Assembly: GCA_017501565.1 (NCBI GenBank)
Contig: JAFVWP010000101.1
Coordinates: 1 to 64,000 of the forward strand
Origin: Elusimicrobiaceae bacterium
Lineage (GTDB): Bacteria; Elusimicrobiota; Elusimicrobia; Elusimicrobiales; Elusimicrobiaceae
Length of the DNA stretch: 64,000 nucleotides
Direction of reading: 5' to 3'
The notes below the pieces were generated by a model. That model saw only the letters and a program-made list of their open reading frames with translations, was not told the DNA's origin and ran no database searches. Positions 53,251 to 56,227 of this stretch are shown one piece after another (the first letter of the stretch is position 1; the number at the start of each line of letters is the position of its first letter). The position numbers and the translations under genes were made by a program.

Positions 53251-53286
53251 AAAAAATCCCTGCTTTTTCAGGCAGGGAATTTTTTT
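53251..53286 (-). terminator. Terminator of the first HExxH exported protein gene
   Basis: CCCTGC/GCAGGG hairpin flanked by A/T runs. On the minus strand ATTTTTTG follows. It overlaps the stop codon of the gene. Confidence 0.82.
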
Positions 53287-54697
53287 AAATATAACCGGGC
53301 GGAACCGGCGGAAAATGCGGCTCTAAGTCATCTAGTTTTTTACGCAAAAACCGCTGGGCGCTGGGGTGTAACGGCAAAACGTCGTCTTGTTCGTATAAAA
53401 GCGTTTCTTCTTCGGCCCAAGGGAAATCCGGCTCTTTTTGCCATTGGCGGATCCATTGTTTGAGCAGAGCCGTTACCTGTTCTTGGGTCTCGTCAGGCAT
53501 ATTAAGCGTATTCACATATTCTTGCAAAGTAACTTTTGAAGACTCTTCCACTTTCCAAAGGTTTGTTTGCTCGCGGGAAACGTTTAAAACTTTATCTTTG
53601 TCTTTAGCTATTTGAGTATGCTTGGAAGATTTGGCCTGCATTTGCAAAAATTGGTCTTTTTGATTGGGATAATGCTTGGATATTTCATCTAAATCCAATT
53701 CAAACGTTTTTTCTCTTCTCATCAATAAATCTTGCCCCAAAAGAGCTAAATTTTCCATCATATTGGGAATCATGGTATAGTGTTGGTGCTGAATCCAGGT
53801 ACTCAAGCGATATTCTTTGAGCTGCGGATACACAAACAGCCCCAATAGCATTTCCCCATACTCTCTTTCCAAAGAATAACATTCGTCCAAAACTTTCATG
53901 TTATAAATCAAGTTTCTTGTCCCCCGGTAAAAACAGGCATTATGCGTAGGTTTTACCGGCAAACCATATTTACTTTGGGCAAAAAAAGCACCGATTTCGC
54001 TCACCATTTTATTTTCGCCGCTCTTCAACCAAGGCAACAGATGCGTAGCTTCGTGAATAGCGACATTTAAATCTTCCGCGAAAGAATTTTTATAATGGGG
54101 GACATTGATATAAGCCTGATAAACATTGTCTTCTTTATGGATAGAAGCCGCTTCCATCACATCATGGGCTTCAGCCACATAAATTTGCGGAAAACGCGTA
54201 TAACCCGCCGGCAAAAAAGAGTCTGCGGCATATCGCGCACCCAAATAAGTGGCTAAAATGCTCCAAAAATGAGTTTCGTCCAATAGGGGACCTTTCTTTT
54301 TCTGTTGCAAAAGCTCACAGATACTTCTCTCTTTTTCCGGAATTAAATCCAACTCTATTTTGTATTTTTTTCTGGTAGCAATCGGCAAAAGATGACGGGT
54401 AGAAAAAGACACTTTTTCTTTTTTTAATTTTTCCTCGTTCTTTTCAAGCCATTGTAAGAAGAGATTTACGCGGTACCAGCCGGTTTTGCGGTCCGGGTCG
54501 GAGAAATCGCGGCGGCCGTAATATTGTTCAAGTTCCGTACGGACCGATTGGTACAAGGGGCAACTACGCGCCATAATGGTTTGGCCGAAAAGGTCCACCC
54601 TGCTGCGCTGCCAAAGCGTCAGCTTGGTATCATCGGCAAAAAGAGGCATCGTAAACAACAAAACACAACTTAAAAAGAAAATTTGTTTTATTTTCAT
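53285..54697 (-). CDS. Exported putative zinc metalloprotease, paralogue A
   Basis: A 470-residue exported protein. The signal peptide ends after FTMPLFA (about 21). HEATH (215-219) is an HExxH zinc motif; Glu234, 14 residues after the last His, is a possible third ligand as in gluzincins. A conserved region CPLYQSVRTELEQYYGRRDFSDPDR (46-70) precedes it, and the C-terminus ends PPVPPGYI. I do not recognise the family. It is a paralogue of the next gene upstream, the two sharing signal, motif and tail. A hairpin (GTTTCAA/TTGAAAC) lies just before the ATG. The substrate is unknown. Confidence 0.85.
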   Translation of the reverse strand: MKIKQIFFLSCVLLFTMPLFADDTKLTLWQRSRVDLFGQTIMARSCPLYQSVRTELEQYYGRRDFSDPDRKTGWYRVNLFLQWLEKNEEKLKKEKVSFSTRHLLPIATRKKYKIELDLIPEKERSICELLQQKKKGPLLDETHFWSILATYLGARYAADSFLPAGYTRFPQIYVAEAHDVMEAASIHKEDNVYQAYINVPHYKNSFAEDLNVAIHEATHLLPWLKSGENKMVSEIGAFFAQSKYGLPVKPTHNACFYRGTRNLIYNMKVLDECYSLEREYGEMLLGLFVYPQLKEYRLSTWIQHQHYTMIPNMMENLALLGQDLLMRREKTFELDLDEISKHYPNQKDQFLQMQAKSSKHTQIAKDKDKVLNVSREQTNLWKVEESSKVTLQEYVNTLNMPDETQEQVTALLKQWIRQWQKEPDFPWAEEETLLYEQDDVLPLHPSAQRFLRKKLDDLEPHFPPVPPGYI

Positions 54698-54700
54698 AGT

Positions 54701-54722
54701 TTCAACGCCTTTTTTGAAACTT
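54701..54722 (-). promoter_or_regulatory. Inverted repeat before paralogue A
   Basis: GTTTCAA/TTGAAAC separated by 8 nt, between the two HExxH genes. It lacks a T-run and may be an operator or an mRNA hairpin separating the two genes. Confidence 0.4.
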
Positions 54723-56143
54723 TAAATATATCCTTTCGGTACGGGCGGTAAATGGGCTTTTAAACTGCGTAATTTTCTATTTAAAAAATTCTCTGCCGAC
54801 GGAGATAAGAAAGTAGTTCTTTCGGCTTTCAAAAAGAACTTTTCATATTCATACATCGGAAAATCCGGGTCTTTTTGCCACTCTTTTATCCAAACAGCCA
54901 ACATATCTTCCACCGGTTTGCGTGCTACCTGCGGCAAGTTTAATTTAGATACATAACTTGCCAAAGTCATTTCTTTGGTTTCTTTTACATTCCAGGTTTC
55001 TTCGTCTGTTTTAACAACAACCAAAGTTCTGTCATTCTCAAAAAAGGAGTCATAATGAATAAAAGCTCTTTCTTTTACGTCTTGCGGGAAAAAGTCCTGC
55101 TGATCCGGGTAATATTGGGATATTTCTTCTTTTCTCAAAGAATGCTCACGCGGATGAGGCTCAAACAAACGATGATGGCTCAGCGCGGCCATATCGTCCA
55201 TAAAAGCAGAAATAGTTTTTTGGCTGTTGAAATTTTCATGTAAAGCTAAAATGGGCATTTGTTTTAAATAAGGATACACAAAAATACCCAAGAGCATTTC
55301 GGCATATTCGGCAGATAAGTCTTTGCAGGAACCTATTTCATCTACGCTGTGCAGAAAGTTGCGCGCCCCTTTGAAAAAACATTTTTCTTCCAATTTGGTT
55401 TTCACCGGCATGCCGTATTCCGCTTGTGCATAAAAAGAAGCCGTTTCCCCCAACATTACATCTTCGCGGTTGGCCATCCAATACAAAAGATGCACCCCTT
55501 CGTGAAGGCCCAAATTTATATCTTCCGCCAAAGAAGTAATCATCTGCCCGACGTAAATAGCGCCTTTTTTTTGTTTTTTTACAGACACCAGGCTCGCGGC
55601 GGCGCCGTCTGACTCTACTTCTTTTATGGAAATAAAAGGGGTTTTTAAATTTTTCTTCGGCATAAAAACATCTTGTGTGTAGCGAAGACCTAAATAAATG
55701 CCGAGCGTTTTTTGTAAATGTTTTTTCTCTACTTCATTGTGCGTTTTACCTGTTACAAAATCACACAGCGGAAATTTATGATCTTCTGTCGTGGTAACCG
55801 ATGAAAAACTTCTCTCTGTTTTAACATGGACTTCAGTATGTTGGGAATAAAAAAGAATAGATTCTCTTTTTAATTTTTGCTCGTTTTCGGCAAGCCAGGT
55901 CAAGAAATTATCTACCCGATACCAACCGGTGGAGCGGTCCGGATCCGAAAAATCACTCCGGCCGTAATATTGCTGGAGTTCACTTCGCACCGATTGATAC
56001 AAAGGGCAACCGCGCGCTTGGATAGCTTGCCCCAAAAGCGCGATTTTTTCTTGCTCGGCCAAACCAAAAGACACCTGCTCCGCTTGTAATGTCAGCGGAG
56101 AAAGCATCAGCAATAATGCCGGCAAAAAGAAGAGAGATTTCAT
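54722..56143 (-). CDS. Exported putative zinc metalloprotease, paralogue B
   Basis: A 473-residue exported protein, paralogue of its neighbour. The signal peptide ends near AEQ (about 21). HEGVH (214-218) with Glu233, again 14 residues after the last His, repeats the motif of paralogue A. It shares CPLYQSVRSELQQYYGRSDFSDPDRS (46-71), AEDINLGL before the motif, FYAQAEYGMPVK after it, and PPVPKGYI at the end. TATAAT stands exactly 6 nt before the ATG without Shine-Dalgarno, so it may be leaderless. The pair probably arose by tandem duplication and has diverged in the middle region (residues 95-165). Confidence 0.85.
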   Translation of the reverse strand: MKSLFFLPALLLMLSPLTLQAEQVSFGLAEQEKIALLGQAIQARGCPLYQSVRSELQQYYGRSDFSDPDRSTGWYRVDNFLTWLAENEQKLKRESILFYSQHTEVHVKTERSFSSVTTTEDHKFPLCDFVTGKTHNEVEKKHLQKTLGIYLGLRYTQDVFMPKKNLKTPFISIKEVESDGAAASLVSVKKQKKGAIYVGQMITSLAEDINLGLHEGVHLLYWMANREDVMLGETASFYAQAEYGMPVKTKLEEKCFFKGARNFLHSVDEIGSCKDLSAEYAEMLLGIFVYPYLKQMPILALHENFNSQKTISAFMDDMAALSHHRLFEPHPREHSLRKEEISQYYPDQQDFFPQDVKERAFIHYDSFFENDRTLVVVKTDEETWNVKETKEMTLASYVSKLNLPQVARKPVEDMLAVWIKEWQKDPDFPMYEYEKFFLKAERTTFLSPSAENFLNRKLRSLKAHLPPVPKGYI

Positions 56144-56149
56144 AATTAT

Positions 56150-56155
56150 ATTATA
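56150..56155 (-). promoter_or_regulatory. -10 box of the paralogue B/A unit
   Basis: TATAAT followed by 6 nt and the start codon, preceded by GGC. Confidence 0.55.
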
Positions 56156-56180
56156 GCCTTTTTCTTTCTTTTTTCAAGCA

Positions 56181-56211
56181 AAAACCCCGGGCTTTTCTGT
56201 CCCGGGGTTTT
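56181..56211 (-). terminator. Terminator of the gyrase unit
   Basis: CCCCGGG/CCCGGGG hairpin with a 9-nt loop and AAAA/TTTT on both sides, just past the gyrA stop. Confidence 0.85.
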
Positions 56212-56227
56212 AAGTAAAAACAAGAAG

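Follow-up and report, generated by a model that had tools for sequence, protein, structure and literature searches.

A tandem pair of predicted exported proteins that probably belongs to a new family of gluzincin-type zinc metallopeptidases

Results

The two adjacent genes described here, A and B, are tandem duplicates that probably encode gluzincin-type zinc metallopeptidases exported through the Sec pathway, members of a new family found in two related genera. Their reading as zinc peptidases draws on the existence of a family, its invariant signature, export-like N-termini, purifying selection, tandem duplication and a predicted order of helices like that of gluzincins. Both genes lie in the window, by which we mean the whole stretch of 64,000 nucleotides analysed from an Elusimicrobiaceae bacterium (contig JAFVWP010000101.1):

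54722..56143, minus strand: member A, 473 aa, predicted exported gluzincin-like protein with the C-terminus PPVPKGYI
53285..54697, minus strand: member B, 470 aa, tandem paralogue of A with the C-terminus PPVPPGYI

The earlier note, made from the letters of the DNA, had reported these two open reading frames and described both products as carrying signal peptides, an HExxH motif with a Glu 14 residues further on, a shared CPLYQSVR...YYGRxDFSDPDR block, a PPVPxGYI end and a diverged middle region, and every part of that description was recovered here. By inspection the N-termini are signal-peptide-like (MKSLFFLPALLLMLSPLTLQA followed by EQ in A, MKIKQIFFLSCVLLFTMPLFA followed by DD in B). The motif reads HEGVH at residues 214-218 of A, followed after 14 residues by E233, and HEATH at residues 215-219 of B, again with 14 residues before the Glu. 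The two proteins are 37% identical across 457 residues (E 1e-109). The Cys of the CPLYQSVR block is specific to the pair, and the features found family-wide are YY, W-x-R-V, L-G-x-x-Y, P246, Y280 and the C-terminal P-x-G-Y.

Neither A nor B has a single match in Pfam or NCBIfam, nor does either match a PHROGs family, and no PDB sequence was matched by member A or by the family profile; no known peptidase could be linked to them by sequence. Some Pfam rows, DUF4434 and Phage_terminase among them, were weak, scattered and under the cut-offs, and were set aside. Literature searches found nothing on the family. Each window protein was also run in a pattern-plus-tblastn search across 84,980 species genomes, a method that reaches close relatives only, and gave no match. 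Profile searches recovered 28 complete relatives of 331-519 aa with a median identity of 23%. Within the genus, 16 of 66 genomes have members; for the class the count is 21 of 235 and for the phylum 22 of 341, and the family is confined to two of the phylum's 100 genera, the two being related to each other. Five close pairs are under purifying selection, with dN/dS values of 0.08-0.36.

The home genome (1.47 Mb in 141 contigs) holds four members. The window pair is flanked by gyrA and an alpha-amylase-family gene; the other two members form a second tandem pair, which lies on a different contig and is flanked by ppdK and gmk. A and B are sisters in the tree (support 100/98) and stand far from the second pair, which indicates that duplication happened more than once. 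The ppdK-gmk interval is the usual site of the family in the home genus, with one to three tandem copies, and in eight family-free genomes it is almost empty or occupied by other genes. A functional tie to ppdK or gmk was considered and rejected, the interval varying from 113 bp with no gene (L098) to several unrelated genes. Across genomes (e.g. L027, L028, L031-L034, L092-L099) this variable interval holds pilins, other small proteins or these predicted peptidases; one occupant (L027:10343-11740) is type IV pilin-like, with an N-terminal methylation motif and a long C-terminal region built from repeat units rich in Tyr, Asn and Gly.

Three elements flank the window pair:

56172..56225, minus strand: stretch from the gyrA stop to A in which a U run follows a GC-rich hairpin (z -3.0)
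56150..56177, minus strand: promoter-like TTGAAA-N16-TATAAT with 11 of 12 consensus bases, a consensus match only
53257..53278, no strand assigned: bidirectional terminator-like hairpin just beyond the B stop codon (z -4.1)

With a promoter-like element before A and terminator-like hairpins past gyrA and past B, the pair looks, as far as sequence can tell, like a self-contained two-gene unit. The promoter-like element ends six bases ahead of the A start codon and, if real, would yield a near-leaderless mRNA. The 24-base gap between A and B (54698-54721) folds as an 8-bp hairpin (AGTTTCAA...TTGAAACT) that abuts the second start codon.

The alignment of the 28 complete sequences has 277 well-filled columns, of which 18 do not vary (Y59, Y60, W74, R76, V77, L91, L151, G152, Y155, H214, E215, H218, E233, P246, Y280, P469, G471 and Y472). 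H214, E215, H218 and E233 are unchanged in all 28, and the chance that four named columns should all be invariant is about 1e-5. The loop from HExxH to the Glu ranges from 8 to 24 residues across the family, and the Glu is never lost. These lengths and the invariant Glu fit HEXXHX(8,28)E, the motif used for gluzincin-type peptidases (PMC3267712), which mutagenesis of both Glu supports in the gluzincin Svx (PMC9266454). The metzincin pattern HExxHxxGxxH/D is absent, as neither its Gly nor its His/Asp is found at the corresponding positions (e.g. HEGVHLLYWMA). E233 is a candidate third ligand of the predicted metal site.

Two AlphaFold models were made, one of moderate confidence for a window protein (pLDDT 76.5, pTM 0.77) and one for a compact member of 331 residues with a wider alignment (pLDDT 86.2, pTM 0.85). 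In both, one helix finishes with HExxH and the long helix after it starts with the Glu; in the compact model HExxH falls within helix 130-143 and E161 begins helix 161-171, and in the window model E233 begins helix 233-243. This predicted order, with the HExxH helix, a loop and the Glu in the first turn of the following helix, is the gluzincin topology; it is an indirect check on the refuting case named in the earlier note, a fold with the two His and the Glu far apart.

All Z-scores from realigned PDB entries are below 8 for both models, a range in which a likeness may be mere common arrangement: among the best 50 entries for the compact model, 48 are named zinc metallopeptidases, nearly all of them gluzincins (Z 3.5-5.6; ACE/ACE2, M32, M4, M1, M3, selecase, projannalysin and one metzincin, snapalysin), with a DUF885 protein and an entry whose whole title is 'CHT' as the remaining two, and the matches of the window model include leukotriene A4 hydrolase (5.8), F3 aminopeptidase (5.4), selecase (5.4) and vibriolysin (5.1). 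Foldseek alone gave no PDB match with E below 0.1 for either model, and it has terpene cyclases, GPCRs and further unrelated folds among its own top rows for the compact model, so a list as uniformly made up of zincins as the realigned one would be hard to obtain by accident. A structure search of a viral library returned no usable match, its SprT-like rows being weak. The list for the window model mixes gluzincins with GAF and roadblock-like folds, the latter on residues ~326-400 only. Residues about 326-395 of the protein encoded at 54722-56143 are a predicted insert of roadblock/GAF/PAS-like alpha-beta type (Z 4-5.5, within the same low range), which compact relatives do not have.

Outside the predicted metal site, nothing is as fixed across the family as the C-terminal tail. 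P-x-G-Y-[ILYMFH] terminates all 28 complete members and the C-terminal fragments as well, with nothing beyond it. When the home-genome DNA was searched for P-x-G-Y-I-stop (TAA/TAG), the pattern matched three genes of the family and one further site, at which no open reading frame ends, and hence no unrelated protein of that genome shares this form of the tail. The tail has a pLDDT of 76-91 across both models and a beta-bridge is assigned to residue 472 of the window protein, from which we infer that it probably packs against the protein. The minigluzincin proabylysin has a C-terminal tail that reaches into the cleft and binds the zinc (PMC5557861).

Genes resembling parts of type 9 secretion, a system that published papers confine to Bacteroidota, are present in these genomes. 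A protein like SprA/Sov, the type 9 outer-membrane translocon, is encoded in the home genome (L082:1330-6750, on contig C4) and in a genome of the second genus (L074:8792-14206), the latter copy matching TIGR04189 at E 8e-31, below the equivalog cut-off. Further genomes of the order, ten in number, all had an SprA-like gene, including five of the same genus that lack the A/B family. Four genomes of the second genus (L072, L074, L075 and L076) carry a compact member on the strand of the SprA-like gene, 113-125 bp upstream of it; in the three of these with a contig long enough, a gene pair of one family stands just upstream, encoding trypsin-like proteases in L074. The home genome also encodes a PorV-like protein (L100, C135:13010-13513; NF033709, E 8e-22, below cut-off), whose gene directly follows a 1629-aa reading frame with a weak match to a type 9 sorting tail (E 0.002; L083, C135:12528-12638). 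Together these two neighbours suggest more of a type 9-like system. That weak match is the genome's sole one to the type 9 C-terminal sorting domain (TIGR04183), and no family member matches the domain.

Discussion

Our results agree with the earlier proposal of a new secreted metallopeptidase family, as a prediction, in that no known family matches, the signature is invariant in 28 relatives and the compact model groups with gluzincins. By analogy with gluzincin chemistry, a single zinc ion would be held by H214, H218 and E233, E215 would activate water for its attack on the peptide bond, and the invariant Y280 may stabilise the transition state. The target would be periplasmic or extracellular, and the variable copy number and patchy distribution of the family suggest that it is fast-changing rather than housekeeping. 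As to the host or cell-wall proteins that the earlier note had in mind as targets, the analysis gave no indication in either direction. With less certainty, the P-x-G-Y-[hydrophobic]-COOH end could fold back and plug the active-site cleft of its own or a neighbouring molecule, to be displaced or trimmed once the enzyme acts.

What the tail does is a separate question from whether the protein is a peptidase. Reasoning from proabylysin, we tentatively suggest that the free C-terminus, P-x-G-Y-[I/L/aromatic], is an inhibitory pseudo-product docked in the protein's own or a neighbour's active site, an idea to which we give roughly one chance in a handful or a little better. If it is true, self-plugging would allow tandem diverged copies to cross-regulate. 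The main alternative, a sorting or binding signal, belongs to a reading that we consider possible at something under one chance in three, in which the protein is a peptidase whose tail is a signal for sorting, secretion or partner recognition, or else a structural clasp, and no plug at all. The absolutely fixed position at the very C-terminus would suit such a signal, as would the SprA-like, type 9-like translocon of the home genome and the close upstream placement of compact members in four genomes of one genus; however, no unrelated home-genome protein carries the P-x-G-Y-I-stop form, the family has no match to the type 9 C-terminal domain, and the SprA-like gene is equally present in all five family-free genomes tested from the same genus and in three of the sister family. 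Export of the family by a type 9 route was rejected on the last two of these grounds.

The peptidase reading itself could be wrong in two ways. A zincin fold reused in a non-catalytic binding protein or adhesin would account for the fast divergence, the tandem copies and the sites shared with type IV pilin genes, yet the general base Glu215 and all presumed ligands are invariant in 28 of 28 members. Non-catalytic copies of enzymes usually lose the general-base Glu, and we regard this reading as improbable. Still more so, to the point of being hardly credible, is an unrelated exported protein, no peptidase, in which HExxH is coincidental; it would fit the lack of sequence homology to any peptidase and the low Z-scores, but it has to contend with four residues whose joint invariance is far from a chance event and with a list for the better model that is made up near-exclusively of zincins. 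Within the preferred reading of an exported zinc peptidase there is also a narrower version, not an alternative to it, in which the substrate is a host glycoprotein (mucin) and the enzymes are akin to the M60-like peptidases of gut bacteria. This is unlikely in our estimation: HEXXHX(8,28)E, export and patchiness between related species match the description of M60-like enzymes (PMC3267712), whereas Pfam Peptidase_M60 goes unmatched at E 10 in 29 members and no carbohydrate-binding domain was found.

If exported zinc peptidases are indeed what these genes encode, the family is one that current profile libraries miss wholly, in a bacterial lineage of small genomes. The catalytic prediction is clear enough for one mutation to test it, and the fixed tail supplies a precise and cheap hypothesis on the control of activity.

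Comparison with known peptidases

Among known zinc peptidases the tubulin-tyrosine carboxypeptidase MATCAP appears in the matches of the window model, although its match is weak (Z 3.8), does not stand above other gluzincins and is accompanied by no sequence similarity. The M60-like (PF13402) enzymes resemble the A/B family in being exported, in carrying HEXXHX(8,28)E and in their patchy occurrence (PMC3267712), and differ in that PF13402 detects none of the 29 members at E 10 and that accessory glycan-binding domains were not found here. The gluzincins at large (M1, M2, M4, M32 and others) have HExxH and a downstream Glu on the next helix and are the nearest structural neighbours of both models; unlike them, the family has a short spacer of 8-24 residues and an invariant P-x-G-Y tail, and it shows neither a named-family match nor detected sequence similarity. 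The minigluzincins (selecase/projannalysin and proabylysin) consist of a minimal domain of ~105 residues as against 331-519 aa here, to which the A/B family adds further regions at both ends and a predicted signal peptide. Nevertheless, 95 of the 108 residues of selecase align at 2.8 A with residues 140-255 of the window model, HExxH and E233 included, and proabylysin, whose own C-terminal tail blocks it (PMC5557861), offers a likeness to the plug proposed for this family.
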